A DNA stretch of 20,245 nucleotides. Source: a virus. A program made the position numbers and the translations under genes. The stretch's first letter is position 1. Each line of letters opens with the position of its first letter. A model generated the notes under the pieces. The model saw only the letters and a program-made list of their open reading frames with translations. It was not told the DNA's origin and made no database searches. Location of the stretch: IMG/VR virus record IMGVR_UViG_3300030333_005156, positions 23,687 through 43,931 of that record. One strand, given 5' to 3'. Below, piece after piece: positions 1-19,541 of the stretch.

Positions 1-3000
1 ACCTATATAAATTACTATCATAATATACACTCTGATGTTGACTTGGTATATATGAAGAACTATAAGGTATATGTGCTGATGCACTTGCACTTGATGAATA
101 AAAATATACCATTTCTTGATTATGTTCTGCTAATCTTGAACCACTTATATTTGGTTGTAATACTTCACCAAAGGTTGTTCCCTCACCACCTGATGTTACA
201 CTTGCAGTTGCATAATTGTATCCATATGCTGTTTTTTGGTCTACAACATTCAATTTTAATAATGTTGGTTGATTCAAAGTACCAAGTGAACCACTATTAT
301 CTTGGAATCTCAAATTCACTTCACTTTCATGATAATCAGAACTTCCACCTATATCAAAATAAATATCATCTCTTGACCCACTTATGAATCTTGTTACTAA
401 TAATCCATCTTCATATTCACCTGCATTTTCATAATAACGATTATCATATTCAGGTCTATCCCCAACAATTTGTTTACTTCTTTCCAAAATATTTGGTTCT
501 ATTAAAACACCTGTTGTTGCTTTACTTCTAGCAGGAACCCATTGTTTTAATTGTGTAAATACACTTGGGTCATAATATGTTAGTATTCTTAAATAATCCC
601 AAAAGTTATTAGGTCTTGAATACTTTTGCCAATATTCTGTTCTTAATTTTTGTAATCCTCTATATGATAATTTATATTGGTCTCTTGGGTCTCCAATATA
701 ATCATCAAAATTAAAATCTGCAATACTATACATTATATCTTCATTAATAACATCAACTGGTGAAAAATAAATACCAACCTTTTCACTATCTATTGGTGCA
801 AAGTCTTGTGATGATTTTTCTCTACGCGATTCTGGAGAAAGATTACCAGTTAATGTAGTATCTTCAATTCTAATCTTTGTTGCATTTCTTCTCGTAGGGC
901 CGATATTTGGAACCTTTAATTGTTCTTTATCAACTAAACTTCTAAATGTATTTGTAGTAAATCCATTTGCTGAACCAGTTGTATCGGTTGGTGCACTTAT
1001 ATAATAATTTTGTTTATTCGCAACATTTGTTACATAAGATGTTGTATTTAAATTAATATTATTATCAAGTGAATGTCTTATTAATAAGTCATGGTAAGAT
1101 GAACTATAAGTATTACCATTATATGACTTAGGTGCTCTAACATGATTATTAAATATACTTTGACTTAATGGTTCTGACCATAAACGATATTCCATTAATG
1201 AACCACTATATCTTGCACCAAAGTTTGTATTTTGACCACCAAGATAAATATATTTTGAACCACCACTTCCAGTAAATGCAGCATTTATTGCACTACTACT
1301 TGCATGTCCTATACCTGTTGTTAAACTTGAACTTGTTTGGAATTTAATTCTTTCTCGTGTTGAGTCATATTGTTTTGCAGTTAACTCATACTTTACATTT
1401 CTTGATGTCAAATCATCACTCATTGGAACACCACTTGCACTAATTCTTGTCAACATCACACTCCACATATCATCATTATAAAATGGTTGTAAAGATGAAG
1501 TTATACCATACTCACCTGTTGATGCACTGATACTAAATTTTAAATATCCAAAATCATCTGCTGTTCCGTTGTCTTTTAAATGTATTGCCCAATCATTTTC
1601 TTTTTGTGCAATCACCATACTACCAGAACTTCCTACACTATGTGGTGTTCTAAATCTAAACTCTATTGTTTGTGGATAAATACTATCATTATCGGTTGTC
1701 CATAATGTTTTTATATATTGTGATGCATGAAAATCTAATGCATATGTAAATTTTCTTTTTACTTCATAACTAACTCTTTCTTGATTATCTGGGCCACCAT
1801 ATTCTCTTACTCTTAATATTGTAGATGGTATACCATAACAATTTAATATACCCTTTAGACATCTAATTGAACCTTTACTCTTTACAAAAAATGGTAAATT
1901 ATTTAATAATCGTTTCCATATTTCTTCAGTCACTTGTTCTTGTGGTGTTTCATATTTTGAACTACCATCTGCACCCTTACCTAACAGATATTCTGGTAAT
2001 ATCATCAAGTCATTTCCATTTGCCAATTCTAGCCCAAGTGATTTTGCATATGATGCAGCAATGTCTTTTGAAATACCCTCTGATATATTAGGTGATTTAG
2101 TATTAATATCTGTAATATGTTTTGTGTATACCCATATTTCATCAAATTGTTGTCCTACCATATCCATAAATTCTAAGAAAGGATTGTTTTGAGTATCATC
2201 AACAACATGTAATGGTAAATTATTAACTAATCTATCTTTATTTTCAATATCATAAATTGATGCACTTGATATCATAGTATCAAACCAAGTAGTTGCTGCA
2301 GAACCTGTTGAATGAATTAATGTATAGGGTTCTGATGAATTAGATTTAGGCCATGTGTTATCATGATATTGTCCTGCAGACGAACTTACATAAGATGAAC
2401 TTTCAAAATACATATAATGTTCAAATGGGTCAAAAGAATTGACAACTCTTTGTCTTTTATTTTCAAGTAATGAAATTTCACCAGCAGATGATGAAATAGG
2501 AACCAAGGATTGACTTGATTTATTATATCCCTCAATCAACTCCACTTTCTTTTTAAAGTTTTTTATTCTTCTTTCTGCACTTGAGAAATGTACAAAATTA
2601 CCAAAACCTATATCATCAGTTTGTAAATTAACATCTACTGATGTCCTATTAAATTCAGTATTAACTTGGACATCTAATAAACTACCACTAATTAATTTTC
2701 TTTCTATATCTTTATTAACCGAATCATCACTACCCAATAAACTTGTATGTGTTTCTAATCTTGTGGTTCTAAAGTTTATAGGATTTTCTACAGATTGTAA
2801 ATTTGGTAGTTGTAAAAATAAACCATCTGGGTCTTCATCTATAAATGGTATTAATCTTATTGTATCATTATGGTCAGGAAGTCTTTTCTCTACAAAAAAT
2901 ACTTTTTTATATTGTTCAATATCATCTGATAATGGTTGTTTAAGTTTAAAAACTCTTTTTAATTCTTGTGTTGAAAAGAAATCTTTATTTTCATTTGTGA

Positions 3001-4681
3001 CTAAATAATAATCATCATCACATACCATATATGTTTTAAATCTTTCTATGTTATTTTTTTCATATAATACATTCCAACCAAAAAAATCATAATTTCTTTT
3101 ATCAACACCATCATGTCCTACCTCGGCTGCAGCCTCATAATAACTGATATCAACTCTAATTCTATTATAATCTAACACCTCTACAATTTTTGCAACATAA
3201 TCAACATTAAAAGTTGTGTCTATAATAGTAGGTGGTGCTCCAGGAATAATATTATTTTGTAAGTTTTCTGCATCTGCATTATTTCCTGCTTCTTGTTCTG
3301 GTGTTGTAGTTACTTCCCATGTAAATGTTGGATTATTTTGGGTACCACCAGTATAATATCCAGCATGACTACCATGACCTTCTTGATTTTCTGGAACTGC
3401 AAGTAACATTTTAATTCTATTTCTTTGTTCAAGAAAACGCTCTTGCCAATGTTTATTTTCTGTAGTTTTCCATTTACCTAAAGATGCTGCAACTATATTG
3501 TTTGCAAATATTGTATGGTGTTTATCTAATATAAGATTCCATACTTGAAATGGTGGTTTTTGAAAATATTCGGTTCCTATTTCTTTTGACATAAACCAAC
3601 CATCTTTTGTTCTGATTGGATGATGGTCTGTAGTGATAAGGTTTTTATATTTAACCATTTTGTCACCAAAACCTCTATCACTTTTTATTACTTTTTTAAC
3701 TCTTGCAACACCTTTATCTGTTCTGACTTTCATACCAGCTCTCATCATCTTGATTGGTATTTGTCTACCATTACTTAGTGTTACTTTAGTGTTAGGATGA
3801 AAACAAACACCATCATAATCAAACTCTGACCCACCATCAAAATCCTCTGATTCAGTTGTTTCATTCTCTGTTTGTTCTTCTTCTGTAAATGCATCTGGAA
3901 CACTATCGTCTACAAAGTCATCTCCCTCACCCATACTATCATCAAAGTCTTCAGGATTTGAATCTTCATATACTTCTTCAGTTACGGTATATTGAAATAA
4001 TCTTGGTATTCTAATCTCACCACCAACCATATTTTGAGTAAAACCTCTATCACCATCTTGTAAATTTGCAATTAAAGTATGTTCATTGTCATCATCAAAT
4101 GTAAGTGAACCATCAGCATCTGATTCTGGCATATTAATGGGTCTATATTTAACGAGAGTATTCATCTCTCTAAAGTTTTTAAAATATGTTTGGTTTTTAA
4201 AATCTTGAGTAGATACAATTACTTCACTTCTATCACCAGAAATGTGTTCAAGGACATATTTTAAATCTCTTAAGAATAATTCTTTAGGTGGGTTTTGATA
4301 TATTTCCTCTGCAGACATCCCTGCAACACTTGAATAGTATCTTGTTTCATTATTTAATACTTGTGTTTGTACTTGACCTGCATATATTTGACCCTCATCA
4401 TCAACAAATACACTTTGGTCTCTACCAGCTAATTTTCTTAAAAATTTATAAACAACTCTATAGGTTCCCTCATGAAAACCCTCGTCCCTAAAGAGTTGTC
4501 CAATATTTAAATCAATAAAACCATCTTCAACATTTGGTGATAATTTTTTAGTGAATATTAAATTGTCTTCCTCATCATATGCATGAACAATAATAAAGTC
4601 ATTACCTCTACCAAAACTACTATATACCCTACCTGGGTTATAATATAATTCTCTTTCTTCTGGTGTAAATCCATATTCCAT
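1..4681 (-). CDS. Giant tail/baseplate structural protein with embedded Hint domain and LamG-like domain (partial, C-terminus beyond window)
   Basis: I read this frame codon by codon and it is open from the ATG at 4681 to the window edge, giving at least 1,560 residues with no stop. The ATG overlaps the TAA of the upstream gene by one base (TAATG). Visible parts in order: an N-terminal region of about 240 residues that I do not recognise; a very acidic linker (about 240-292); a Hint domain (293-400); a long unassigned region; a concanavalin/LamG-like beta sandwich (about 980-1185), with TIEFRFRTP near its start and YIYLGG then SGSLMEYRLW near its end; and a Ser/Tyr-rich C-terminal part. It is the last gene seen in the baseplate operon after gp25 and gp6, where T4 carries the large wedge protein gp7, so a baseplate or tail-fibre role is inferred from position. 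I do not claim homology to gp7. Confidence 0.9.
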   Translation of the reverse strand, partial: MEYGFTPEERELYYNPGRVYSSFGRGNDFIIVHAYDEEDNLIFTKKLSPNVEDGFIDLNIGQLFRDEGFHEGTYRVVYKFLRKLAGRDQSVFVDDEGQIYAGQVQTQVLNNETRYYSSVAGMSAEEIYQNPPKELFLRDLKYVLEHISGDRSEVIVSTQDFKNQTYFKNFREMNTLVKYRPINMPESDADGSLTFDDDNEHTLIANLQDGDRGFTQNMVGGEIRIPRLFQYTVTEEVYEDSNPEDFDDSMGEGDDFVDDSVPDAFTEEEQTENETTESEDFDGGSEFDYDGVCFHPNTKVTLSNGRQIPIKMMRAGMKVRTDKGVARVKKVIKSDRGFGDKMVKYKNLITTDHHPIRTKDGWFMSKEIGTEYFQKPPFQVWNLILDKHHTIFANNIVAASLGKWKTTENKHWQERFLEQRNRIKMLLAVPENQEGHGSHAGYYTGGTQNNPTFTWEVTTTPEQEAGNNADAENLQNNIIPGAPPTIIDTTFNVDYVAKIVEVLDYNRIRVDISYYEAAAEVGHDGVDKRNYDFFGWNVLYEKNNIERFKTYMVCDDDYYLVTNENKDFFSTQELKRVFKLKQPLSDDIEQYKKVFFVEKRLPDHNDTIRLIPFIDEDPDGLFLQLPNLQSVENPINFRTTRLETHTSLLGSDDSVNKDIERKLISGSLLDVQVNTEFNRTSVDVNLQTDDIGFGNFVHFSSAERRIKNFKKKVELIEGYNKSSQSLVPISSSAGEISLLENKRQRVVNSFDPFEHYMYFESSSYVSSSAGQYHDNTWPKSNSSEPYTLIHSTGSAATTWFDTMISSASIYDIENKDRLVNNLPLHVVDDTQNNPFLEFMDMVGQQFDEIWVYTKHITDINTKSPNISEGISKDIAASYAKSLGLELANGNDLMILPEYLLGKGADGSSKYETPQEQVTEEIWKRLLNNLPFFVKSKGSIRCLKGILNCYGIPSTILRVREYGGPDNQERVSYEVKRKFTYALDFHASQYIKTLWTTDNDSIYPQTIEFRFRTPHSVGSSGSMVIAQKENDWAIHLKDNGTADDFGYLKFSISASTGEYGITSSLQPFYNDDMWSVMLTRISASGVPMSDDLTSRNVKYELTAKQYDSTRERIKFQTSSSLTTGIGHASSSAINAAFTGSGGSKYIYLGGQNTNFGARYSGSLMEYRLWSEPLSQSIFNNHVRAPKSYNGNTYSSSYHDLLIRHSLDNNINLNTTSYVTNVANKQNYYISAPTDTTGSANGFTTNTFRSLVDKEQLKVPNIGPTRRNATKIRIEDTTLTGNLSPESRREKSSQDFAPIDSEKVGIYFSPVDVINEDIMYSIADFNFDDYIGDPRDQYKLSYRGLQKLRTEYWQKYSRPNNFWDYLRILTYYDPSVFTQLKQWVPARSKATTGVLIEPNILERSKQIVGDRPEYDNRYYENAGEYEDGLLVTRFISGSRDDIYFDIGGSSDYHESEVNLRFQDNSGSLGTLNQPTLLKLNVVDQKTAYGYNYATASVTSGGEGTTFGEVLQPNISGSRLAEHNQEMVYFYSSSASASAHIPYSSSYIPSQHQSVYYDSNLYR
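3482..3805 (-). other. Hint (hedgehog/intein-type autoprocessing) domain inside the giant tail protein
   Basis: Residues 293-400 of the giant protein show the Hint blocks in order. Block A starts at Cys293 (CFHPNTKVTLSNG). Block B has the TxxH signature at 350-353, followed by HPI and a GW (ITTDHHPIRTKDGW). Block F is VWNLILDKHHTIFANNIV (380-397). At the C-terminal junction, where inteins end in His-Asn followed by Cys/Ser/Thr, the sequence is Ala-Ala followed by Ser400. The thioester-forming Cys and the block B His are kept and the Asn that cyclises in splicing is absent. About 108 residues leave no room for a homing endonuclease. By family knowledge this favours N-terminal cleavage, as in hedgehog or type-B bacterial intein-like domains, over protein splicing. 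Confidence 0.85.
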
Positions 4682-5045: not shown

Positions 5046-6221
5046 TTATCTCTCAATGTTTCTTACAACCTTAAATGACCATGCTGGGTCACTATAATAA
5101 TTTATTATTTCTTCTGATGTACCACTACCACTTACAACTTTAATTGAAATATCATAATGTCTTTCTGATTGAAAACTATCCATTCTTAGATTGAAATAAT
5201 TACCTGTTGAATCACAACTAACTTTAGAACCTGTTCCAAATGGAACAATAGTTTCTTCAGTAACAGAATCTTTAATTGAATAATAAGTTGATGCACTTGG
5301 TAGTGTTCTAATTGTTAGACCCTCAGGTGTAGTATTAAATACTCTATCATTATATCTCGGTCTACCAACTAATCTAAATCTTGATATTGATTTTTCTAAA
5401 TATTCTTCTCTTATACCTTTAAAATAAATTACGGTATCTTCCAATGCACTACCTGTTAGTTGTGTTAAACTTCCTGTTGACCAACTTGAATCATCCCAAA
5501 CAACCTCTAATGATGGTGGATAGATTGTGTGTGTTTCTCTTGAGAAAAATTGTAATGTCCCAAATCTTGAAGTTCCACCCTCATCTGAATCTGAATCACC
5601 ACTAAAGCTATAAGATGTTCCATAGGAACCTGTTGATTCTCTCTTAATTATAAATCCATTATTAGGATATATTGAACTTGAATGTATATGATTATTAACC
5701 AAATCAGTTACATCAAATCTAACATCTCGTTTATCATAAGTTAAATCATAAGATTGACTTATATTATATTGTGAATATGAATCTTGTGAACCAGTAAACC
5801 ATGCACCACCATCAGTAGTAATTGAACCAGTTACCCATGGTGTTTCTTTTTGTTGGTCTCTATATTTAAATGATGCACCATCTTCTGTTACAGGACTATC
5901 AAACTTTTTACCAGTTCCTGACTTCCAACTACCACTAATCATATAGATATGTAAATTTTGTTCTGCTTCTAAATCTTTTGAACCAGCATCATATAAATTT
6001 AAATAAAATTTTGCAGTAGTAGGTATCTTACCATCTTGTATTGATTGTGATACATATGAATAATCTACTTCCAATAATATACGAGATATATTTATTGTGC
6101 TACCATCATCACTTACTTCTTTAACAACTTCAAGTATCTCATCGTGACCTGCATTTAATGATGAAGTAGTTCCACCAGAAAATAATGTTGTATCCTTTTT
6201 TATATATTCAAAATAATGCAT
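5046..6221 (-). CDS. Beta-rich virion structural protein, DNRLRE-like N-terminal half
   Basis: 391 residues. The ATG overlaps the TAA of gp6 (TAATG) and has AGGAGA seven bases upstream. The N-terminal half has the layout of DNRLRE-type extracellular beta domains: a start with a string of small residues and LNAGHDEILEV, then SRILLEVDYSYV, a hydrophobic KFYLNLYDAG strand, a SGSWKSGTG turn, and RFDVTDLVNNHI followed by NNGFIIKRE. DNRLRE domains are known in large surface-exposed fibrous proteins. The second half (about 225-391) is also beta-rich, ending DPAWSFKVVRNIER. It lies between gp6 and the giant tail protein, so I infer a baseplate-proximal structural or fibre-attachment protein. The DNRLRE assignment is pattern-based and tentative. 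Confidence 0.8.
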   Translation of the reverse strand: MHYFEYIKKDTTLFSGGTTSSLNAGHDEILEVVKEVSDDGSTINISRILLEVDYSYVSQSIQDGKIPTTAKFYLNLYDAGSKDLEAEQNLHIYMISGSWKSGTGKKFDSPVTEDGASFKYRDQQKETPWVTGSITTDGGAWFTGSQDSYSQYNISQSYDLTYDKRDVRFDVTDLVNNHIHSSSIYPNNGFIIKRESTGSYGTSYSFSGDSDSDEGGTSRFGTLQFFSRETHTIYPPSLEVVWDDSSWSTGSLTQLTGSALEDTVIYFKGIREEYLEKSISRFRLVGRPRYNDRVFNTTPEGLTIRTLPSASTYYSIKDSVTEETIVPFGTGSKVSCDSTGNYFNLRMDSFQSERHYDISIKVVSGSGTSEEIINYYSDPAWSFKVVRNIER

Positions 6222-8197
6222 TAGAAATCTCCTACTACTCTACCCTCAATATCTGAATCTGGGAATTTTACTTCAAATATACTTGGGTCTAATGATGGAT
6301 ATACCACACCATCTCTTGATGCTGATGATATGTCATATATGTTACCACTATATTCACTTGTTACTAAGTGTTTATTTTCAATACAAACTATATCTTTATT
6401 TGGATTATTGTGGTCAGGTGGAACAATACTTGCAACACCATCAACTAAAGAAATTTGATAGGCAATATCACTTAATACTATTGGTTGACCAATTTGCCAC
6501 TTATCAATTTTAAAATAGTCTTTTACCTTTTGGATTGCTCTAAATAATACATCATTTTTATTAAATCCTCTTTTTGTAATAATATTAAATCTAACACCTA
6601 TATTAATAATATATGCATTCTTAATGTTGATTGCATCTGTTACCATTCTATATTGTGATAGATAAATTTTTAAATTTTCTTTTACTGCTCTATTTACAGC
6701 AATAAGTTTTTTATTTGCATCATATCCAAGAACATACATATTTAATGCCAATGGATTTGGATTAATACTTACATTTTCATTTTCTACTACTTCACCAGTA
6801 ACACTATCTACATATGTTTCAGTAGCCTTTTCTAATTGTTCATCTTGAACAATAAATGCTTTTGCAATATTACCATATTTTTGTGGTAATGAATATATTC
6901 TTGTAATATAATCTTTTTGTGTTACTGAACGACCTTGTGCATTAAATATAGATGCTGCATTTAAACGAATAGATTCTATTGGTTCCTCACCACTACCACC
7001 TGATGCAGGTTTTGGGTTTGTAAAAGATAAACTTTCTTCTGCAGTTTGTTTTTTTGTTGAATCTAAATTATCACCTGTAATTGTAAAAGTTACATCACTT
7101 GAATTTGTGATGGTATTAGAAATTACATTATGTTCAACATCTCCACCATGATTATATTTTACGGTTAAAGTTGTATTACTTGGTGCAAGACCAAAAGTTT
7201 TTGTTTTTAAAAAATTACTTGGGTCAAATGTTTCATCTATCTTTGAAACACCTACTCCTAAAGAAGAACCAACACTATCTGGATTTGGTATTATTTCTTC
7301 ATCAGGATTATCTGATATACCAGCACCAAACAATAATTCTGTTTTTAAATCTGTTCCTCTAATATTTGTTGAAAATCTTTTTGAAGTTTTAATTAATTTT
7401 AATAGATAAGGTGTATCGTTTGCATATTGTGCAAGGTTTGGGTCATTGGTTGTAGAATTTTCTTCATCTTCATATACGGTATCTTGTGCAAGATAAGGAA
7501 CTTGATACCAATTATTACCATTACTATCTGTTACAGAAATAACCTCAGTTACATTAGGTTCAGATAAAACAATTTTGTCAAACTTTTTTGCAGAAGTAAA
7601 TGTAAATGTTTCTGATTTTCTTTGACCACTTTTTACGAGAGCCTTTTTAGTTAATTTAAATTCTGTTGGAACATTACCACTTGATGGTTCCAATGCCTCT
7701 TTAACAAGTGGGTCTAATGAACTTGACACTTTAAAGTTAACATCATCCAACATAGTAAAATCAACACCACTTGTTGATGATACAACACTATTAGAACTCA
7801 TTATACCAGCATAACTTAAATCAGGAATATACTCATCCGATGCATTTACCTTTGCAGGAACATTCATTGATACTTCTATCTCTGCAGTTGCAGGTGAAGC
7901 TGTTTTTGGTTTGTATCCTAAAGATTGTGCAATATCATAAATATTCTTTTTCTCTTCTGCTTGTAAAATTAATGTTTCTCTAAATTGATTATCCACATAA
8001 AAATTTAATACATCACCAACATATGCTGCCATCTCTATGAACATCATACCTGGGTCTGATTCATTAAAGTCATTATATGTATTTGGAAAATATGATTTTG
8101 CAAACTCAATAATATTCTGTCTTATTGTTGAGAAATCTCTTCCAAGATAATTTACTTCTTTTTTAACTACTTTTTTATTTGTTCCATAATCAGACAT
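6221..8197 (-). CDS. 6: Baseplate wedge protein, gp6 / baseplate J family
   Basis: 658 residues, close to the length of T4 gp6. The N-terminus carries the hallmark of T4-like gp6 proteins: LGRDFSTIRQNIIEFAKSYF, then DFNESDPGMMFIEMAAYVGD (residues about 19-63), followed by a FYVDNQFRETLI helix. The C-terminal half has the baseplate J-type core around ARDGVVYP and earlier AASIFNAQGRSVTQKDYITR (about 412-432), where the protein typically begins its second conserved part. In T4, gp6 dimers join neighbouring wedges into the ring around the hub and drive sheath-contraction signalling. The start is supported by GGAG inside the end of gp25, seven bases before the ATG. The order gp25 then gp6 is typical of contractile phages. 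Confidence 0.95.
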   Translation of the reverse strand: MSDYGTNKKVVKKEVNYLGRDFSTIRQNIIEFAKSYFPNTYNDFNESDPGMMFIEMAAYVGDVLNFYVDNQFRETLILQAEEKKNIYDIAQSLGYKPKTASPATAEIEVSMNVPAKVNASDEYIPDLSYAGIMSSNSVVSSTSGVDFTMLDDVNFKVSSSLDPLVKEALEPSSGNVPTEFKLTKKALVKSGQRKSETFTFTSAKKFDKIVLSEPNVTEVISVTDSNGNNWYQVPYLAQDTVYEDEENSTTNDPNLAQYANDTPYLLKLIKTSKRFSTNIRGTDLKTELLFGAGISDNPDEEIIPNPDSVGSSLGVGVSKIDETFDPSNFLKTKTFGLAPSNTTLTVKYNHGGDVEHNVISNTITNSSDVTFTITGDNLDSTKKQTAEESLSFTNPKPASGGSGEEPIESIRLNAASIFNAQGRSVTQKDYITRIYSLPQKYGNIAKAFIVQDEQLEKATETYVDSVTGEVVENENVSINPNPLALNMYVLGYDANKKLIAVNRAVKENLKIYLSQYRMVTDAINIKNAYIINIGVRFNIITKRGFNKNDVLFRAIQKVKDYFKIDKWQIGQPIVLSDIAYQISLVDGVASIVPPDHNNPNKDIVCIENKHLVTSEYSGNIYDISSASRDGVVYPSLDPSIFEVKFPDSDIEGRVVGDF

Positions 8198-8199
8198 TT

Positions 8200-8619
8200 T
8201 TATGCTCCAACACTTCTATTAAAATTGAATGTTATATTTTCTAAAGATTCTTTTTCAGTCTCTATAAAGTATTCTAATTGTATTTGTACCAAATTAGGAT
8301 TACTTGCATCTTGAACCACGAATATATTATTAACATTAACATAAGGTAACCAATTTTCAATTGCATCTCTGATAGTTTCCTCTATCTTATTATCAAAGTC
8401 GTCTACGATTGGTTCAAATAATAAATTTGTTAGTTCCGAACCAAATTCTGGTTGGAAAGGTCTTTCACCTTTTGATGTTAACAACAAATTTCTAAGATTT
8501 GATTTAGTTTGCTCTAATAAAGTTTTACTTTGGTTAAAAGTAGAAAAAAGATTACTCGTCATTGGAAATCTTAATCCGACAAACTTGTCAGGATTTTTAT
8601 CTGTTGCTCTTACACCCAT
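8200..8619 (-). CDS. 25: Baseplate wedge protein gp25 (GPW_gp25 family)
   Basis: 139 residues, the usual size for gp25. The signature LLLTSKGERPFQPEFG (residues 45-60) followed by SELTNLLFEP is the conserved core of the gp25/lysozyme-like baseplate family shared by T4, Mu, P2 and contractile injection systems. Gp25 sits in the inner baseplate next to gp6 and gp53 and is thought to nucleate sheath assembly. The gene starts three bases after the upstream TAA, with an AAGGGA ribosome binding site, and ends two bases before gp6. No key residue of the motif is missing. Confidence 0.96.
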   Translation of the reverse strand: MGVRATDKNPDKFVGLRFPMTSNLFSTFNQSKTLLEQTKSNLRNLLLTSKGERPFQPEFGSELTNLLFEPIVDDFDNKIEETIRDAIENWLPYVNVNNIFVVQDASNPNLVQIQLEYFIETEKESLENITFNFNRSVGA

Positions 8620-8622
8620 TTA

Positions 8623-9108
8623 TTATTTTTTTCCCTTGAATTTATCATGATTTATTAAGTCACTATAGTCACGAGTCAATGCATTCTTTAATGAATCTGG
8701 TAATTGTTCTGAAGTAACTCCTGCCTCTTTCATAGTTTGGACTGCTGCTATTTCTCTTTGAACTTTTTTATCACCACCTGCTACGAGACCATCTCCATAA
8801 CCTAACAACTCTGCTGCTCGTGATGAATCAAATGTTCCATTACCCATTGTAGGCCATTCAGAATCTTCTGTTTCACCTTGACTTAAACCTATAGTTTCAT
8901 TTAACACTTCATTCAATGGCCCATTTTTTGTAAACTGAACCTTTTCCTTTTTCTCAATAGGTTTGATTTTTTCCACATTTTTTATGGTTTCTTTTGCGAG
9001 AGACTTAAGAGATTGTTTGTTCTCCTTTATAAATATCTCATTGACTTGTTTTTTAACTTCTTTACGAACTACTAATTCTATTATTTTTATTAGTTCTGTT
9101 TTTTTCAT
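8623..9108 (-). CDS. Small virion-associated protein upstream of gp25, function unknown
   Basis: 161 residues, not recognised by name. The N-terminal 60 residues are lysine-rich and helical (MKKTELIKIIELVVRKEVKK), a style often seen in small proteins of marine T4-like phages. A middle segment (about 70-110) is Gly/Ser-rich with EWPTMGNGTFDSSRAAELLG. The C-terminus is helical and basic, ending HDKFKGKK. The gene has GGAG seven bases before the ATG and lies directly between the 144-residue gene and gp25. Its place in the baseplate operon suggests a structural or assembly role; no catalytic motif is visible. Confidence 0.8.
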   Translation of the reverse strand: MKKTELIKIIELVVRKEVKKQVNEIFIKENKQSLKSLAKETIKNVEKIKPIEKKEKVQFTKNGPLNEVLNETIGLSQGETEDSEWPTMGNGTFDSSRAAELLGYGDGLVAGGDKKVQREIAAVQTMKEAGVTSEQLPDSLKNALTRDYSDLINHDKFKGKK

Positions 9109-9120
9109 GTTATTACTCCT

Positions 9121-9555
9121 TTATGTAACCGTGTATACCCCACTAAATGTTGCACCACTACTTGTATTAGTAAATATCACCGTATCTAAATGTTCTTTAA
9201 AATAATTACCCATATTATTTAAAAATCCATCTAATGTATTAGATTCCCATGTTGATGTGGGTGGTGTTCCACCAGCAGTTACAAATACACCATTAGTTAA
9301 TGCCGTCCAATATAAAACTAATCCTGCACCAACACCATCAAGTAATACTGATACTGATTGTGATTGTAATCCTGCTTTCATTGGTGTTAATATTAAATCT
9401 TTATTTCCTGTTTGCATATTATATGCACCACCACCACTTGTTATAGTATTGTGATATTCATCCACAATAAACTCTGCACATTCATCAGTTGTTTCAAAAA
9501 ACTGACCATTGTTCATTTTACTTCTATAATTATCTTGTAATGTATCAAATGACAT
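9121..9555 (-). CDS. Putative tail/baseplate protein, function unknown
   Basis: 144 residues, no recognised family. It opens with a helical stretch (MSFDTLQDNYRSKMNNGQFF, then DECAEFIVDEYHNTI), followed by a Gly/Thr-rich region with LLDGVGAGLVLYWTALTNGV (about 71-90). The hydrophobic part is too interrupted by polar residues for a confident membrane helix. It ends in a beta-prone GATFSGVYTVT. The stop of the upstream hub/spike gene overlaps this start by one base (TAATG), so the two are probably translationally coupled. Location between the spike and gp25 argues for a baseplate or hub component. Confidence 0.75.
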   Translation of the reverse strand: MSFDTLQDNYRSKMNNGQFFETTDECAEFIVDEYHNTITSGGGAYNMQTGNKDLILTPMKAGLQSQSVSVLLDGVGAGLVLYWTALTNGVFVTAGGTPPTSTWESNTLDGFLNNMGNYFKEHLDTVIFTNTSSGATFSGVYTVT

Positions 9556-10712
9556 TACTTATCAATTCTATGTTTATCACTTAATGCATCTTTCACTGCA
9601 CTCATAGCACTTGTTACTGCACTCCAATTAGGTGCTGCACTTACAGGTCCTGGTGTTGGGCCTGTTGGTGTTGGTATACCAGTCACTCCACCAATTGCAG
9701 TAACCAATGCATCTAACTTATCATATAGTATTTGTCCCAACACTTGTGGTTCAGTTCCACTATCATCACCTATCTTAACTTCAGGTGATTCCATTACAAT
9801 TTTATTAACTGCACCTATTGAAACATTATCACTTGAATATAATCCAATACTATCTGTTCGTGTAGTAAAAATTATTCTATCACTACGAACTTGTATTTGT
9901 GACTTATCATAATCAAGTGAGTCTTGTATTACTTTAGATGTTATTGGTAGTTCTAAGTTTACTTTTTCATTATAAGTCATATTAATAGAACTCAAATCTT
10001 CTTTAATAGACTCAACTGCTAAATTATCATTTACAAATCCTGATACACCATTTGTTATTTTTATACTTGGTGATATTTCTTGTTCATCAATTTGGTTACT
10101 ACCTAATCTAATCATATTACCAAATCGTCCATTAAGAATTGTATCACCCTCAAACATAACAGGTCGTTTTACATCTTTATCTGCTGTATAATAAAAACCA
10201 GGTTTATACTTATCTGAATTTACCATTGGTGACCTATCCCAAGTAAAGTCAGATTGTTTTACATTTGCATTTTTATTTGTTAAATTACTAATACCTGGTC
10301 TTGCCATATTAGTTGGTGAATTATTTAAATGAACAAATCCTAAATAATATCTTTCACCATTATCAACATATCCATATACAACTTCACCTGCTACAGGTAT
10401 TCTTTGTATATCTGGCATCAATGGTCTAAACCAACTACAACTACTTATATTTACATTATCTTCTGAAAGTAAAAATCTACCTTTTATACCACCATAATAA
10501 GTATAGTCAGGTTCACCATCTATTTTTCTTCGTGGTAAATCTTCTTCTTGTAAACAAACATTCAATACTTCAACTGGTTCTAATTCATAAAATAAGTCAC
10601 TATCTTGATTTAATTTATTTATAAGATTTTGACTTTGTGCTGTTACTAAACCAGTTTTATCTTTACCAACACCAGGTGATGTAGTTTGTTTAACTTTTAA
10701 TGTTACTGGCAT
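9555..10712 (-). CDS. gp5-like baseplate hub / tail spike protein with OB-fold domain
   Basis: 385 residues. Residues about 70-130 carry the OB-fold pattern of gp5/VgrG-like spike proteins in T4-like phages: YYGGIKGRFLLSEDNVNISS, then SWFRPLMPDIQRIPVAGEVV and a YYLGFVHLNN strand. Further on come NGRFGNMIRLGSN (about 194-206) and a repeating beta section (QIQVRSDRIIFTTRTDSIG), which resembles the beta-helical needle part. A Pro/Thr/Gly linker (about 343-358) precedes a helical C-terminus. The lysozyme domain of T4 gp5 is not visible here. The protein probably forms the trimeric membrane-piercing spike under the tail tube. The start is supported by AAGGAT six bases upstream. Confidence 0.85.
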   Translation of the reverse strand: MPVTLKVKQTTSPGVGKDKTGLVTAQSQNLINKLNQDSDLFYELEPVEVLNVCLQEEDLPRRKIDGEPDYTYYGGIKGRFLLSEDNVNISSCSWFRPLMPDIQRIPVAGEVVYGYVDNGERYYLGFVHLNNSPTNMARPGISNLTNKNANVKQSDFTWDRSPMVNSDKYKPGFYYTADKDVKRPVMFEGDTILNGRFGNMIRLGSNQIDEQEISPSIKITNGVSGFVNDNLAVESIKEDLSSINMTYNEKVNLELPITSKVIQDSLDYDKSQIQVRSDRIIFTTRTDSIGLYSSDNVSIGAVNKIVMESPEVKIGDDSGTEPQVLGQILYDKLDALVTAIGGVTGIPTPTGPTPGPVSAAPNWSAVTSAMSAVKDALSDKHRIDK

Positions 10713-10722
10713 TATTTATCCT

Positions 10723-11112
10723 TTAGTCTTGATTCAAACTCGCCTGAATAGTATCAGAATGACTTTGTAACTCTTGAACATCGTCTTCTATTGCATCCAT
10801 TAATTGTTTCTTTTCTGCATCTGTAAGTCCGAATTCATCTCCACTATCGTTACTAATTCTTCCCTCAGCTGCCATTATTCTTTGAACCACGGTTGCTAAT
10901 TTAACTAATTGTTCATCATTTTTAACATTTATTTCTAAATATTCTTTTAACATAGGTATTATTTGCACAGCCGTATCACCATCTTTAATAAACCCTACTA
11001 CCTCTTTCATCAATACTTCTAATTGTTGTTTATTGGTTTTGGAATTATCATAGATGTCTTTGAATACATCTGATAAGGTTTTACCCTCAAATATTTCGTA
11101 ATCATTTGCCAT
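10723..11112 (-). CDS. Small helical protein, first gene of the baseplate operon
   Basis: 129 residues, almost entirely predicted helix and acidic, with no membrane segment. It opens MANDYEIFEGKTLSDVFKDI and ends in a long acidic helix (LTDAEKKQLMDAIEDDVQEL). I do not recognise a family. It is the first leftward gene after the divergent intergenic region at 11113-11253 and ends ten bases before the hub/spike start, so it heads the late baseplate operon. A structural or chaperone function is inferred from position only. The ribosome binding site is weak (TAGGC). Confidence 0.75.
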   Translation of the reverse strand: MANDYEIFEGKTLSDVFKDIYDNSKTNKQQLEVLMKEVVGFIKDGDTAVQIIPMLKEYLEINVKNDEQLVKLATVVQRIMAAEGRISNDSGDEFGLTDAEKKQLMDAIEDDVQELQSHSDTIQASLNQD

Positions 11113-11159
11113 AATTTTGCCTATACATTATCAATAATAAATATTAAAACTTCAAAAAA

Positions 11160-11167
11160 TGTTTATA
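11160..11167 (-). promoter_or_regulatory. Possible late promoter of the baseplate operon (TATAAACA)
   Basis: On the minus strand this reads TATAAACA, one base from the T4 late -10 element TATAAATA. It lies 48 bases upstream of the first baseplate-operon ATG at 11112. T4-like late promoters have only this -10 element and need a gp55-type sigma factor, which this phage encodes. The surrounding sequence is very AT-rich, so a chance match is possible. Confidence 0.35.
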
Positions 11168-11175
11168 TATAAATA
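11168..11175 (+). promoter_or_regulatory. T4-type late promoter (TATAAATA)
   Basis: A perfect match to the T4 late -10 consensus TATAAATA on the plus strand, 79 bases upstream of the 73-residue membrane protein ATG. It is back-to-back with the TATAAACA element read on the minus strand, which would make 11113-11253 a divergent late promoter region. The match sits in an alternating AT tract, which lowers certainty. Confidence 0.55.
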
Positions 11176-11217
11176 TATATCAACCCATGAAAGTCTCATA
11201 TATACAATAGTTATTTA

Positions 11218-11236
11218 AGTCGGTGGAAATCCGACT
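11218..11236 (+). promoter_or_regulatory. Leader hairpin upstream of the 73-residue membrane protein gene
   Basis: AGTCGG (11218-11223) pairs with CCGACT (11231-11236) around a seven-base loop. This short stem lies a few bases upstream of the CGGAG ribosome binding site. It could stabilise the 5' end of the mRNA or affect ribosome access. There is no U tract, so it is not a terminator. Confidence 0.45.
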
Positions 11237-11253
11237 ATAACGGAGAAACAAAA

Positions 11254-11475
11254 ATGAAGGAAATCATAACAATAGTTAAGGGATATGTAGATGATTTAGC
11301 TCATCTTCTTTTATCCTTGGTTGCCATAGGTGCTGTTTCTGAAGTAATTTTTGGAACTGGTATCTTCGGTGTAAATGTTATCGGTAACCTAACATCAATC
11401 ATAAACACATTCGGCGAATCTGGATTCGCTGGACTCGTCGCATTGTTGGTGTTGGTGGGTTTATTCCGTAAATAG
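11254..11475 (+). CDS. Small two-helix membrane protein, function unknown
   Basis: 73 residues with a CGGAG ribosome binding site about eight bases before the ATG. The N-terminus is amphipathic (MKEIITIVKGYVDDLAHL). There are two hydrophobic helices at about 15-35 and 57-71, joined by a Gly/Asn-rich loop with FGVNVIGNLTSIINTFG. The tail is a short basic FRK. It lies on the opposite strand to all neighbouring long genes, behind a late promoter and before a strong terminator, so it is probably a single-gene late transcript. Size and topology would fit a holin-like or virion membrane protein, but charge pattern and context do not decide it. Confidence 0.8.
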   Translation: MKEIITIVKGYVDDLAHLLLSLVAIGAVSEVIFGTGIFGVNVIGNLTSIINTFGESGFAGLVALLVLVGLFRK

Positions 11476-11498
11476 TACTAATTCGGATAGAAGTAAAT

Positions 11499-11530
11499 AA
11501 AAAAGGGTGGGATTTTTCTCACCCTTTTTT
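11499..11530 (+). terminator. Rho-independent terminator after the 73-residue gene
   Basis: AAAAAAGGGTG (11499-11509) pairs with CACCCTTTTTT (11520-11530), an 11-bp stem that can be extended by a G-U and a G-C pair, with a T-rich loop. The A tract on one side and T tract on the other mean it can work in both directions. It starts 24 bases after the stop codon. Confidence 0.9.
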
Positions 11531-11552
11531 GTTATATTAAAATATTTATATT

Positions 11553-11588
11553 TAATCAACCGCATATGTGTTGATTATTAACGCGTTA
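11553..11588 (+). promoter_or_regulatory. Two inverted repeats in the leader of the lysine-rich peptide gene
   Basis: TAATCAAC (11553-11560) and GTTGATTA (11570-11577) form an 8-bp inverted repeat around a nine-base centre. It is followed at once by the perfect palindrome TAACGCGTTA (11579-11588). Both lie between the preceding terminator and the AGGAGT ribosome binding site at 11593. They could be operator sites or an RNA leader structure; I see no convincing plus-strand -10/-35 pair here. Confidence 0.4.
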
Positions 11589-11603
11589 GTACAGGAGTAT
11601 ATT

Positions 11604-11801
11604 ATGAAGACAATACTAACTGGTATACTTTCTCTTTTAATTCTCTTTGGTTCAGTTCCAACTGCACAAGCATCTGATATGAATAATAAAGCTGGTATGG
11701 AAGAAGTGAAGAAGAAGAAAAAGAAGAAAGGAAAGAAACTTGGTGAAAAAGGTAAGAAGAAGAAAAAGGGTTTTTGGTCTAAAGTCTTTGGAACTAAGTA
11801 G
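11604..11801 (+). CDS. Secreted lysine-rich small peptide, function unknown
   Basis: 65 residues. I chose the ATG at 11604 because AGGAGT ends five bases upstream; a longer reading from 11568 has no ribosome binding site and would bury the signal peptide. Residues 1-23 form a clear Sec signal peptide: MKT, a hydrophobic core (LTGILSLLILFG), then an AQA cleavage motif before Ser24. The mature part is 42 residues with 18 lysines, including runs of seven (36-42) and five (51-55), and ends GFWSKVFGTK, an aromatic basic tail. A polycation exported to the periplasm could bind membranes, peptidoglycan, lipopolysaccharide or DNA; a lysis or envelope role is speculation. It lies on the plus strand, converging with the methyltransferase gene. 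Confidence 0.8.
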   Translation: MKTILTGILSLLILFGSVPTAQASDMNNKAGMEEVKKKKKKKGKKLGEKGKKKKKGFWSKVFGTK

Positions 11802-11811
11802 TATTAAAATA

Positions 11812-11839
11812 AAAAAGGGAAGTGAAAACTTCCCTTTTT
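11812..11839. terminator. Bidirectional terminator between convergent genes
   Basis: AAAAAGGGAAGT pairs with ACTTCCCTTTTT, a perfect 12-bp stem closed by a GAAA tetraloop, with A and T tracts on either side. It lies 10 bases after the lysine-rich peptide stop on the plus strand and 2 bases after the methyltransferase stop on the minus strand, so it can end both transcripts. Confidence 0.93.
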
Positions 11840-11841
11840 AT

Positions 11842-12756
11842 TTACCAAAATTTATTATTGGTGTTTATAATATAATCTTCAAAATTATCTTTAAATTTTC
11901 CTAATCGTTTTGCAGTTTCTTTTGGATTACCCTTTGAAAACATTAAAACATTTTGATGTGACTTAGGAACTTTTCTACTTGTGTTCATAAATTTTTCTGC
12001 TCTCATACCAGCAGTTGCAGGTTCTTGTAATAAAATCATTTCATTATAATAAGACATTCCAGCATCTTCAAACGCCTGAATCGTATCTGAAACAAAACCA
12101 ACATAAGAATCTTTTTCTCTTACCTCACCAACAACAAATACCGCAAAAGAATTATCTTCTAATTTATCACAAGATTTTTTAATAATTTCTCTATATTGTT
12201 TTAAAAAAGTTTTATAATCCATATTAGAAATATCTTCTGGGTTATCTGAATATTGTTCAAGATTATAATAAGGTGGACAAGAAAATAAAAAATTATATTT
12301 ACCTTTTACCTTATCTATATTTAAAGAATTATCATTTATCCAAGTTGGTATGTGAGTATCACATATTTTTTTACCTTGAATTATATTATGTTCTATTTGA
12401 TTTTTAGATAAATCAACACCAGTATAATTTCTTTTTAATTTACTTGCAACAATTCCTCTAACTGAACCACCTGCAAAACAATCTAAAATTTTATCATCTT
12501 CTTTTGTAAACCATCTATACATACATTCACATAAAACAGGGTCAAATACAGAAGTACTATTTTGTCTCATTCGTTTCATCAAATCACTAAGACTTAAAAG
12601 ATTTTCTCCTCTACCTAATTCACTTTCTATACCAAGATTTTTCCATAACTTTTTTCGTTTTTTCCACCTAAGAGATTTTACATCAAGAATACTAATAGGT
12701 GGAATTACGAATACTTGTTCAAGTCTACCAGATTGAGATTTAACTTCATTAGACAT
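11842..12756 (-). CDS. DNA amino-methyltransferase (N6-adenine or N4-cytosine type)
   Basis: 304 residues from the ATG at 12756, four bases after the gp55-type stop; a longer reading would need a TTG deep inside that gene. The N-terminus has FVIPPISILD and a SELGRGENLLSLSDL segment, a layout I associate with phage DNA methylases. Motif I, the S-adenosylmethionine-binding loop, is ILDCFAGGSVRG (about 90-101). Motif IV, the catalytic loop, is FSCPPYYNLEQYS (about 158-170, with the PPY intact). Motif I precedes IV. Expected to methylate an exocyclic amino group in DNA; the target sequence cannot be predicted. It is last in its operon, followed by a strong hairpin terminator. Confidence 0.9.
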   Translation of the reverse strand: MSNEVKSQSGRLEQVFVIPPISILDVKSLRWKKRKKLWKNLGIESELGRGENLLSLSDLMKRMRQNSTSVFDPVLCECMYRWFTKEDDKILDCFAGGSVRGIVASKLKRNYTGVDLSKNQIEHNIIQGKKICDTHIPTWINDNSLNIDKVKGKYNFLFSCPPYYNLEQYSDNPEDISNMDYKTFLKQYREIIKKSCDKLEDNSFAVFVVGEVREKDSYVGFVSDTIQAFEDAGMSYYNEMILLQEPATAGMRAEKFMNTSRKVPKSHQNVLMFSKGNPKETAKRLGKFKDNFEDYIINTNNKFW

Positions 12757-12760
12757 ACTA

Positions 12761-13486
12761 TTATAGATTATTCCAACTACCTGTATATCTTGTCTCAACT
12801 GAACCAGTAGCGAGATAATTTTTTTGTAAATTTACATGATGTTTTTTCATCACATTAACCACACGAGTAATATGTTGTGTATTACTTCCTGTCATCTCAC
12901 GAATTAAAATATACAATGCCTTCTTATTAAAGTTCTCTATATTTTCACGAGTTTCAAAAAGATAAACAACAGAATTTGCAACATCAATATCTTGTTTTCT
13001 TTTAAACACGGTAGTTAAATTATTTGTCCAATACTCAACAAACAAATCAAGATACTCTTTCTTTGCACTTTTCATATCAAGTAAATCAGTTTCACGAACA
13101 GGGTCTCGTTTGTAATCTGTAACTTCTTCACCATCGTGTTGTTTCATTCGTTTGTAGTTATTGTTATTATGTAAAATTAAGTAATTCTTTGCAACAATAC
13201 TAAAGTAAGAGAATGCCTTACCCTTACCCTCTGTGAATTTGTGCATATTCATATATAGAAAACTAACAACCTCGTGCATTACATCTGAACTTGGAACATC
13301 AAAGTAATAAAACTTAAATGTATGAATTATATTTTCTGCCAACTTCTCAAATGGAACTCTAATGTGTTCATTATAAATTCGTTCCCTCATATGTGGACGA
13401 GTTTCTTTATTGTGTCTAATGATTGCATCTTCTGTTCCTTGATGGAAGTAATATCTTGGTGAACCTTTTTTAGCTTTTCTTGGCAT
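12761..13486 (-). CDS. 55: Late-transcription sigma factor, T4 gp55-type
   Basis: 241 residues. Residues about 45-110 show the sigma region 2-like core of gp55 proteins from T4-like phages: PFEKLAENIIHTFKFYYFDV, then HEVVSFLYMNMHKF and GKGKAFSYFSIVAKNYLI, followed by an Asn-rich LHNNNNYKR. Gp55 binds host core RNA polymerase and recognises TATAAATA late promoters, such as the one at 11168. The start overlaps the upstream TAA (TAATG) and has AAGGA nearby. T4 gp55 ends in an acidic, hydrophobic sliding-clamp-binding tail; here the C-terminus reads TRYTGSWNNL, and I see no such acidic motif. Confidence 0.88.
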   Translation of the reverse strand: MPRKAKKGSPRYYFHQGTEDAIIRHNKETRPHMRERIYNEHIRVPFEKLAENIIHTFKFYYFDVPSSDVMHEVVSFLYMNMHKFTEGKGKAFSYFSIVAKNYLILHNNNNYKRMKQHDGEEVTDYKRDPVRETDLLDMKSAKKEYLDLFVEYWTNNLTTVFKRKQDIDVANSVVYLFETRENIENFNKKALYILIREMTGSNTQHITRVVNVMKKHHVNLQKNYLATGSVETRYTGSWNNL

Positions 13487-13737
13487 TATATTTCCTTTTC
13501 TGTTATAGTGTTTAATTCATTTATTGTTTCTTTGATACCCTCAAATACTACACCTATTTCATCATCGGCTTCAAATTTACCCTCTGAATCTAATTGGTCA
13601 AGTGTAGTCTTAGTCTGTATCACTCTGTCTGCATATTCTTCAACCCAAGCTTCTAATCGTTCTACTTTTCTAAAAAGATTGAAACTTGTATATCCAAATG
13701 TAACTGCAAGACATCCAAAAATTATCTCTAAGACCAT
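13486..13737 (-). CDS. Small N-terminally membrane-anchored coiled-coil protein
   Basis: 83 residues, family not named. Residues 1-19 (MVLEIIFGCLAVTFGYTSF) form a hydrophobic segment. A charged helix follows (FRKVERLEAWVEEYADRVIQ) and then an acidic, probably coiled-coil part ending INELNTITEKEI. It overlaps the end of the upstream methyltransferase by ten bases, has GGGAG before the ATG, and its TAA overlaps the gp55 ATG. The coupling to the sigma factor gene is tight, but no function follows from the sequence. Confidence 0.8.
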   Translation of the reverse strand: MVLEIIFGCLAVTFGYTSFNLFRKVERLEAWVEEYADRVIQTKTTLDQLDSEGKFEADDEIGVVFEGIKETINELNTITEKEI

Positions 13738-14399
13738 TTCTCTATACTCCCTATTGTTGATTGATTAATTCTATTCATACCCATTTCAAATGTTTCACTA
13801 TTTATTTCGGAACCCAAATATTTACGATTTAATTTATTACATGCAAGTGCAGTAGTTCCAATTCCCATAAATGGGTCATACACAATATCACCCTCTTCAG
13901 TATAATTCTCTATACATCTTTCTGCAACTTCTTGTGGCATATTATATGAATATCCTTTATATGAATGGTGTGGATGATACCAAGTATCATATTTAAATAA
14001 TTTTGTATTTTTAGATTTAAAACTCTTTCGTGCATAAGACATAACAAAGGCATAATTATATCTAAACATATTTATCTCTCTTGACTTTTCCCATATCTTT
14101 TGATTCAATAAATCATAACCTAAATTTTTCATAATGTCTGTAATATACTGATGTTTTGGTATTGTTTTTCTTTTAAATCTTCTATCTGTTACTACAATTG
14201 ACACAACATTTTTTCTTGGATTAAACTTACTATAAATTTCTTCCATCCAACCAAAATACTTATCATCATCTTTAATTGGTTCTAAGTTCATCTCATGATA
14301 CTCAGGTGGGGAAAAGAATACATAATCGTATTCTAAATCCCTACCTAAAGTTATGAGACAATCTTCATTATAGATACTACTTTTCTCCGAATAACTCAT
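13728..14399 (-). CDS. DNA amino-methyltransferase with variant catalytic motif (SPPE)
   Basis: 223 residues from the ATG at 14399, which has AAAGGA eight bases upstream; the longer reading lies deep in the HD gene. Motif order is IV then I, the order of beta-class enzymes. Motif IV reads VFFSPPEYHEMN (about 27-38), so the aromatic residue expected after Pro-Pro is Glu, with Tyr one place later. Motif I is VYDPFMGIGTTALAC (about 173-187), a textbook S-adenosylmethionine site. A MSYARKSF strand and a YSYNMPQEVAERCIE segment before motif I are typical of the N6/N4 methylase fold. Probably a DNA modification enzyme, but the catalytic change raises doubt about activity. It overlaps the HD gene by 23 bases. 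Confidence 0.87.
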   Translation of the reverse strand: MSYSEKSSIYNEDCLITLGRDLEYDYVFFSPPEYHEMNLEPIKDDDKYFGWMEEIYSKFNPRKNVVSIVVTDRRFKRKTIPKHQYITDIMKNLGYDLLNQKIWEKSREINMFRYNYAFVMSYARKSFKSKNTKLFKYDTWYHPHHSYKGYSYNMPQEVAERCIENYTEEGDIVYDPFMGIGTTALACNKLNRKYLGSEINSETFEMGMNRINQSTIGSIEKWS

Positions 14400-15156
14400 C
14401 AAATAAATCCTTTGCTGAAGAAGTTGGTTGTGTTTCAACTTTCTCTTTTATCTGTTTGTTTACCGATTGTTTAATATTCTTAACTGATTTATTTACTTTT
14501 TCAGTAGATTTCTTTTCTGAATATTTCCATTCAGTATACTCTGCTCTTGTTGCCATATGGTCAGCCCAATGGATAAGATAAGGTAAACTTGAATGAAAAC
14601 TATGTTCAGGTTTAAATGTTTTTAAATATTGAACATTTGCATCATCATACATACCATCACTAACTTTAATTGCTAACCACTCTAATTGAGTTACTTTAAC
14701 ATCAAAGTGTTGTAATAGATATAATGCTCTATCTGTAACACCCATAAACTGCATTTCAGGATTCTGTGTAAACCACTCGTTGAGTTTCTTTCGTCTCCAA
14801 TCATCTTCTTGAACCAAGTAATACTCATGTTCTAAGTCACCGACTTTACCTAAATCATGATGTAATGCACAAAAAACTAATTCCTCATCAGTATAGTCAA
14901 TGACTGCACCGATAGATTCATATACTTTTGTTAACTTCCTTGCAGTGTCCACTAAGTGTAACACATGAAGAACATAACCACCTGCAAATGCATAGTGATA
15001 ATTTGGTTTACCACTTGCAGGTGCAACAATGATTCTGTCTTCAAAGAAATCATACATCTTATTTAAATTATCAAGTCGTTCACCTGTGAATGTTTCATTC
15101 ACAATGTTTCTCAACTTAGTATAATTGTCTAATAGTTGTTGTTCTGTTAAATTCAT
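14377..15156 (-). CDS. HD-domain phosphohydrolase
   Basis: 259 residues. The metal-binding HD signature is visible: GGYVLHVLHLV (59-69, His64/His67), ALHHDLGKVGD (97-107, the His-Asp pair at 100-101) and a distal Asp in IHWADHMATR (about 199). HD enzymes hydrolyse phosphoester bonds, often of nucleotides; the substrate here is not decided by sequence. HD hydrolases of this kind are common in the nucleotide-metabolism regions of marine T4-like phages. The last 50 residues are a Lys/Ser-rich, probably disordered tail ending KDLFDELFGEK. The gene is the first after the sigma70-like promoter at 15196-15225. Confidence 0.88.
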   Translation of the reverse strand: MNLTEQQLLDNYTKLRNIVNETFTGERLDNLNKMYDFFEDRIIVAPASGKPNYHYAFAGGYVLHVLHLVDTARKLTKVYESIGAVIDYTDEELVFCALHHDLGKVGDLEHEYYLVQEDDWRRKKLNEWFTQNPEMQFMGVTDRALYLLQHFDVKVTQLEWLAIKVSDGMYDDANVQYLKTFKPEHSFHSSLPYLIHWADHMATRAEYTEWKYSEKKSTEKVNKSVKNIKQSVNKQIKEKVETQPTSSAKDLFDELFGEK

Positions 15157-18115: not shown

Positions 18116-18669
18116 TAATTATTCAATACTAAATTTGTCTTTACTATTTTTGCACTATCAAACTTATAAGGTTTGGTTCCTGGGGATTCCAATATATCAA
18201 TACGATTAACAAATCTTTTATTCATCGTATCTTTAACTTGGTAAACACCATCCTTACCATCAGTTCCTTTTAAGACAATGAAGTCACCATAATCTAAAAA
18301 ACCACCATGTCGTTTCAGAAGATTTCTACTGACCGCTATAAATTTATATTCACTTGCCTTGTGGACTCTTATTCGCGTTCCATCCGCGAGAATGTTCGGT
18401 GTAGAATCTGTCTGTTGACGAACTGGATGATACATCGTTACCGTCACTTCCATTCCCTCTAATTTGAACTCCTCTATAAGAGAACTTAATCTCTCATTTT
18501 CTACTTGAAGTTCATTTGTTTTTAATAACAAATTTTCTTTATACTTTTCAAAAATTTTCGTCCAAACAAAAGTATTAAAAATCAATAATGGCATTAATAT
18601 CATTATTGGTAATTTCAGATTGTTCATTTCATAATTCCTAAAGTTAAAGAAATCTTTTACAATAGTCAT
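18115..18669 (-). CDS. Membrane-anchored 3D-domain (double-psi beta-barrel) protein
   Basis: 184 residues from the ATG at 18669, which has AGGAGA nine bases upstream; an ATG 33 bases earlier overlaps the previous stop (ATGA) but has no ribosome binding site. Residues about 20-37 are a membrane helix (LPIMILMPLLIFNTFVW), followed by a coiled-coil stretch (40-70). Residues 74-179 look like a 3D domain: VTVTMYHPVRQQTDSTPN, then ADGTRIRV, IAVSRNLLK and GVYQVKDTMNKRFVNRIDI, with three Asp at 88, 147 and 158 as in the family name. 3D domains share the fold of MltA and RlpA and are linked to peptidoglycan cleavage. Predicted periplasmic and anchored in the inner membrane; a cell-wall role in entry or lysis is inferred. 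Confidence 0.82.
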   Translation of the reverse strand: MTIVKDFFNFRNYEMNNLKLPIMILMPLLIFNTFVWTKIFEKYKENLLLKTNELQVENERLSSLIEEFKLEGMEVTVTMYHPVRQQTDSTPNILADGTRIRVHKASEYKFIAVSRNLLKRHGGFLDYGDFIVLKGTDGKDGVYQVKDTMNKRFVNRIDILESPGTKPYKFDSAKIVKTNLVLNN

Positions 18670-18678
18670 ATATAAATA

Positions 18679-18684
18679 TCTCCT
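18679..18684 (-). promoter_or_regulatory. Ribosome binding site that decides the 3D-domain gene start
   Basis: AGGAGA on the minus strand, nine bases before the ATG at 18669. The alternative start at 18702 has only A/T-rich sequence upstream, so the shorter protein is preferred. Confidence 0.75.
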
Positions 18685-18698
18685 AATATATTTAAAAT

Positions 18699-19019: not shown

Positions 19020-19039
19020 TTATAACCTCTTTTCATTTG

Positions 19040-19382: not shown

Positions 19383-19385
19383 ATA

Positions 19386-19541
19386 TTAATCAATCTCATC
19401 GTGGTCTTCTTCCCACTCAAATATTTCATCACCATCAATTTGAATCGCTATCTCTAAATTATCTATTAATGTTTCAATACGATTCCAATCTTCTTCATTA
19501 TATGCCTTTTCTAACTCTGATTTAATCTCTGCTAAGGTCAT
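19386..19541 (-). CDS. 51-residue acidic protein, function unknown
   Basis: This short frame has a strong start: AGGAGT six bases before the ATG at 19541. The protein starts MTLAEIKSELEKAYNEEDWN, continues as an amphipathic helix with LIDNLEIAIQIDGDEIFEWE, and ends in DHDEID. It overlaps the end of the secreted beta-rich protein gene by 20 bases and stops four bases before the tmRNA. Codon-level sense and the ribosome binding site support a real gene; no family is recognised. Confidence 0.75.
   Translation of the reverse strand: MTLAEIKSELEKAYNEEDWNRIETLIDNLEIAIQIDGDEIFEWEEDHDEID

Follow-up and report, generated by a model that had tools for sequence, protein, structure and literature searches.

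A Vint-type Hint domain at the place of a gene boundary in a phage tail protein, and its probable role as a built-in cutter

As a rule, tailed phages encode each baseplate protein in a gene of its own. A group of marine phages carries two tail proteins in a single long chain. The locus described here raises the question of what a Hint domain devoid of the splicing residues of an intein does in the middle of a very large phage tail protein. The window, that is, the whole stretch of 20,245 nucleotides under analysis, corresponds to positions 23,687–43,931 of the IMG/VR virus record IMGVR_UViG_3300030333_005156, which is 48,414 bases long. Its minus strand carries an open reading frame at 2–4681 that encodes at least 1560 residues and runs past the window end, and window positions 3482–3805 encode residues 293–400 of this tail protein (Table 1). 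An initial annotation, made from the DNA letters, had suggested that the protein cleaves itself at Cys293, perhaps as a maturation switch, or forms a cross-link through the thioester. Comparison with related sequences points to a specific and quite probable answer: the protein would be a baseplate or tail polyprotein, cut before Cys293 by a Vint-type Hint domain that replaces a gene boundary.

The tail or baseplate setting assigned to the Hint protein at the outset finds support in the genes for gp6-like and gp25-like wedge proteins located nearby. The protein of at least 1560 residues, its Hint part included, has no match in PHROGs, and its N domain has none in PHROGs, Pfam or PDB; for the fold predicted for this domain Foldseek gave nothing at E ≤ 0.001, and the best VIA Z was 3.7. 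The N domain is followed by a very acidic linker, recognized already in the initial annotation as ending at Cys293: in the translation (about residues 232–292) Asp and Glu make up 26 of the last 60 residues and Lys and Arg are absent, and in the AlphaFold model residues 228–287 have a pLDDT below 50. Elsewhere on the minus strand of the window, motifs like those of DNA amino-methyltransferases (SCPPYYN, SPPEYH and TSPPYFN) were seen by eye in three genes, at 11842–12798, 13728–14438 and 16562–18115.

Table 1. Parts of the Hint protein and neighbouring baseplate genes, in window coordinates
Feature	Position	Strand	Remarks
N domain, residues 1–230	3992..4681	-	Stand-alone protein of ~300 residues in sister phages
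Acidic low-complexity linker, residues 231–292, ending DYDGV292	3806..3991	-	Resembles the acidic C-terminal tail of stand-alone N proteins
Predicted scissile junction Val292-Cys293	3803..3808	-	Cys293 in 40/40 and Val292 in 38/40 distinct Hint sequences; Cys293 aligned by VIA-align to residue 1 of many inteins
Vint-type Hint domain, residues 293–402	3476..3805	-	Pfam, AlphaFold model, Foldseek, VIA-align, conservation
KW motif and helical tail after Hint, residues 403–424	3410..3475	-	Conserved in Hint-bearing relatives
C part from Met425, cut by the window end	2..3409	-	Met425 corresponds to the start Met of the separate C gene, aligned via closer relatives
gp6-like baseplate wedge protein	6221..8197	-	phrog_219, phrog_10646; context
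gp25-like baseplate wedge protein	8200..8619	-	phrog_261, phrog_43; context

Both profile searches and structure prediction bore out the Hint domain that had been read from the letters. The Pfam profile Vint (PF14623) matches residues 292–423 with E = 2e-16 and about 60.7–65.3 bits, against a curated cut-off of 27; in a scan of the 1560 residues it is the one confident domain, Hint_2 being weaker and nothing else appearing, and all 19 of 19 aligned relatives match it, the best at 1.1e-21. The AlphaFold model, built from 53 aligned relatives, covers residues 1–427, and between residues 290 and 410 block means of pLDDT are 91–97 over most of the length and 76–86 in a few blocks. The top PDB match of the model in Foldseek is the Tetrahymena Vint domain 8r2c (E = 7e-8, probability 1.00), followed in rank by bacterial intein-like (BIL) and intein domains. 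VIA-align gave the model a Z of 15.6 to Tetrahymena BIL2, 15.1 to Vint 8r2c (3.5 Å over 125 residues), 14.3 to a Clostridium BIL and 12.7 to the Hog domain 1at0, and a profile of 19 relatives found 8r2c by sequence alone at 3e-7. As Pfam, the model fold, VIA-align and the profile search agree, the Hint match is not due to chance, and by profile and predicted fold residues 293–402 are a Vint-type Hint domain.

Conservation marks out the predicted active site. Cys293, Thr298, Thr351, His354, Pro355, Asp386 and His389 are among the residues invariant in all 40 distinct Hint sequences, and they include the cysteine, the block B TxxH and the block F picked out by the initial annotation. At the far end of the domain position 399 is Ala, 400 is Thr or Ser and 401 is Leu or Met in every one of the 40, and the intein His-Asn and the +1 Cys, Ser or Thr are absent. 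The loss of His-Asn had thus been seen correctly, whereas the register then proposed, Ala398-Ala399-Ser400, is off by one residue: alignments to the RecA and GyrA inteins and an HMM alignment to BIL2 place the intein His-Asn-(+1) on Ala399-Ser400-Leu401. Because no terminal His-Asn is present and Leu stands at +1, splicing and ordinary C-terminal cleavage would not be expected. The Hint domain is under purifying selection, more strongly constrained than any other part of the protein. Its dN/dS of 0.02–0.17 is lower than that of the C domain (0.11–0.25) in 11 of 11 relative pairs, and lower than that of the N domain (0.13–0.39) in all 10 pairs with synonymous change there.

Relatives were gathered with three queries. 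With the whole protein 152 viral stretches were obtained; 80 loci were taken from them, and since these first 80 were picked for their similarity to the window protein, the shares of split and fused genes do not reflect natural frequencies. The Hint alignment brought 78 and, in addition, one contig in a gammaproteobacterial MAG; of 267 hits to the N domain, 80 were used. All open reading frames of 237 loci, which partly overlap, were then scanned with N-domain, Hint and C-domain profiles: N, Hint and C form one reading frame in 101, and N and C are separate reading frames without Hint in 104. Another 11 loci hold N and Hint only, on contigs ending soon after Hint, and in one more, L124, the C part is broken. 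Counted as distinct N domains, 48 are fused to Hint, 60 are split (65 with short contigs included), 4 are N only and 1 is fused without Hint. Hint-bearing relatives all have a single fused reading frame except the frameshifted contig L030, in which N and Hint-C occupy two frames with the shift near the junction (3780–3900), a sequencing error or real. Fully read members of the subfamily without Hint are all split into two genes except L084, whose gene at 7983–12836 is the sole N–C fusion without Hint in the subfamily; it has no acidic linker, and its middle part is unrelated.

Some observations concern the sources of these sequences. The contig binned in the gammaproteobacterial MAG (L158, NZZP01000021.1) shows a comparable succession of gene lengths as well as a Hint-fused protein, and is probably a phage contig. 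In L159 (G000:C1:1-19900) a protein of 630 or more residues, encoded at 18008–19900 on the minus strand, ends by eye in an apparent T9SS-type sorting domain (NYPNPF...GVYIFVLETDKKIKANKFTVVK); several proteins with signal peptides adjoin it, again by eye, an arrangement suggestive of a host that uses type IX secretion. When 50,697 phage records were searched by tblastn with the Hint part and the N domain, nothing was returned, even at E 10 and 1, so that this collection contains no cultured phage of this type. Vint scored above its cut-off in 2 of 398 genomes of one bacterial phylum, and one of the two is the phage-like contig itself.

The position of the domain is the most telling aspect of the comparison. 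In the sister clade there are two adjacent genes, one for an N protein of 281–324 residues whose acidic tail is disordered, the other for a C protein with a length of about 1230 residues or more; in 69 of the 104 split loci one base is common to the stop and the start codon. In the window's clade this boundary, with the N protein ending on one side and the start Met of the C protein on the other, is exactly where the Hint module (Cys293 to residue 424) is located. The N part that precedes Cys293 in fused proteins measures 269–313 residues (median 302), the median of the separate N proteins being 296, and Asp and Glu account for 31% of the acidic tail in fused and split proteins alike. On the other side, RNRFR followed by MGVSDRAKQQAAQRAASG in Hint-fused proteins of the window's clade aligns with MAISDRAKKLQARLESTN at the split C start (RNRFR and then MGVSDRAKQQ, against MAISDRAKKLQ in sister phages), and an AYIDFDVTG...LGEEG...SPGNGLP block after the C start is shared by the window's clade and split relatives. 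Since the window protein is without most of this block, its own Met425 was placed through its closest relatives. In L004, L005, L012, L019 and L025 the block after Hint (AYIDFDVTG...SPGNGLPxGGLI) is unexpectedly close to that of split relatives, possibly through recombination.

A profile search of the loci detected no Hint remnants between split genes at E ≤ 1e-3. More than 50 bases separate the N gene from the C gene in 20 split loci, mostly with another gene between them (L034, L044, L052, L062, L067 and others), which encodes a basic proline-rich protein (MARRAFIG...) or a nucleotidyltransferase-like protein of ~150 residues. The N/C gene boundary seems to be an insertion hot spot.

On the C-domain tree the split relatives are grouped in a single clade with the window's clade as its neighbour, and most of the remaining Hint proteins fall outside; on account of this placement the Hint domain looks older than the split. 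Either of two histories may apply: Hint was gained once and then lost, or it was gained twice. A single clade of all Hint proteins was not rejected (p-AU 0.33) on a tree with very long outgroup branches, and the split/Hint pattern rests on few changes, 2–3 on the tree. Further afield, the N-terminus of a C-protein relative matches the N-domain profile in Microcystis phage Mel-JY01 and an uncultured jumbo phage (hhalign E 1.7e-6 and 7e-8), and does so weakly in a Flavobacterium phage. These matches in distant relatives that hold both parts in one chain without Hint suggest that N and C probably go back to a single ancient chain, which in this group was parted by Hint or by two genes.

The distant relatives and L084 also indicate that separation of N and C is not strictly required, and that an uncut chain is tolerable in the wider family. 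They thereby lend some weight to the view that Hint is a folded but inactive relic in a protein that works uncut. Such a relic is nevertheless improbable, as the catalytic cysteine, the TxxH and the block F Asp and His never vary among the distinct sequences, no part of the protein is more constrained by dN/dS, and the site of the domain is the gene boundary of the sister phages.

Self-cleavage at Cys293 as first proposed is favoured by homology, by the predicted fold, by the invariant residues and above all by the split of sister phages at the same place, and we infer that it occurs, whatever its timing. Cys293 would attack the Val292 carbonyl in an N–S acyl shift, assisted by Thr351 and His354 and by Asp386 and His389 of block F, and hydrolysis of the thioester would presumably be the last step. 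The expected products are a 292-residue N protein, equivalent to the one that sister phages encode separately, and a C protein beginning with Hint. N-side cleavage is reported for type B BIL domains, in which the intein C-terminal motif is likewise absent (PMC7765530). Hint would stand in for the coupled stop–start junction and fix an equimolar supply of the two chains. A maturation switch or a thioester cross-link is possible; that Hint may do at the protein level the job of the stop–start codon pair of the sister clade is the simpler reading.

A different fate of the thioester, its transfer from Val292 to another nucleophile in a hedgehog-like ligation that would tie the N protein to a virion partner or a small molecule, is very unlikely. 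The domain resembles hedgehog Hog domains in its Hint fold and in having no C-terminal splicing residues, and a conserved 22-residue segment follows it at the position that in Hog proteins belongs to the sterol-recognition part (PMC7765530). This segment, however, is a conserved helix only, the likeness being judged from the Hint fold and the C-terminus, and the N protein of sister phages has an ordinary C-terminus and no Hint, so that ligation is not needed there. There is equally little probability that both ends are parted and Hint freed, whether through the atypical cleavage on the C side that has been reported for type B BIL domains, or by translation restart at Met425: this residue is kept in 39 of 40 distinct Hint sequences and matches the start Met of the separate C gene, and SD-like pairing there is slightly stronger over the whole Hint group than at random methionines (−2.9 versus −1.6 kcal/mol), but the window's own Met425 has almost none (−0.9 kcal/mol, against a mean of −5.6 before true split C starts), which makes an internal start unlikely, the His-Asn is absent with Leu at +1, and the Met425 segment is a predicted helix in the AlphaFold model.

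The phage domain can be set beside several known systems. It is like the Vint domain (PF14623, 8r2c) in its profile score above cut-off, its fold, its motifs A and B, a weak motif F only and the absence of an intein C-terminus. Vint was described at the C-terminus of eukaryotic VWA-Vwaint-Vint proteins (BMC Genomics 2008, PMC2362128). In the phage protein, by contrast, Hint lies mid-protein and a C part of more than 1100 residues follows; as the Pfam scan shows neither VWA nor Vwaint, the protein is by sequence a member of the Vint domain family and not of the VWA-Vint protein family. A 2024 paper on 8r2c reportedly suggested ligand-regulated cleavage. BIL domains, above all those of type B, share the Hint fold and the absent intein C-terminus, and N-side cleavage would be expected in both cases, but they are described from hypervariable regions of non-conserved proteins (PMC7765530), whereas the tail gene that contains the phage Hint is conserved and the domain lies at a gene boundary; type A differs further in its C-terminal His-Asn. 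Inteins of phage genes for terminase and ribonucleotide reductase (e.g. phiCbK, PMC3556154) are similar in fold and N-terminal chemistry, yet they possess the His-Asn and the +1 Cys, Ser or Thr that the phage Hint does not. Moreover, close relatives without Hint have two separate genes at the site, with only L084 and the distant relatives continuous, which argues that the flanks of Hint are not meant for rejoining. An intein or a type A BIL domain is ruled out by the missing His-Asn, and an intein also by the +1 residue and the non-continuous relatives.

Hint domains as such have already been annotated in phage proteins, and the literature searched yielded nothing relevant on Hint or intein-like processing of phage structural or tail proteins. 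What is new is a Vint-type Hint used at a phage gene junction. The split sister genes provide a natural control that predicts the exact cleavage product, and Vint function is therefore testable with one small construct. The domain might also serve as an N-side-cleaving tag of ~130 residues without splicing activity. On balance, the Vint-type Hint appears to be a built-in, cis-acting cutter at a phage structural gene junction, evolutionarily interchangeable with an overlapping stop–start, which would assign Vint a role outside eukaryotes.
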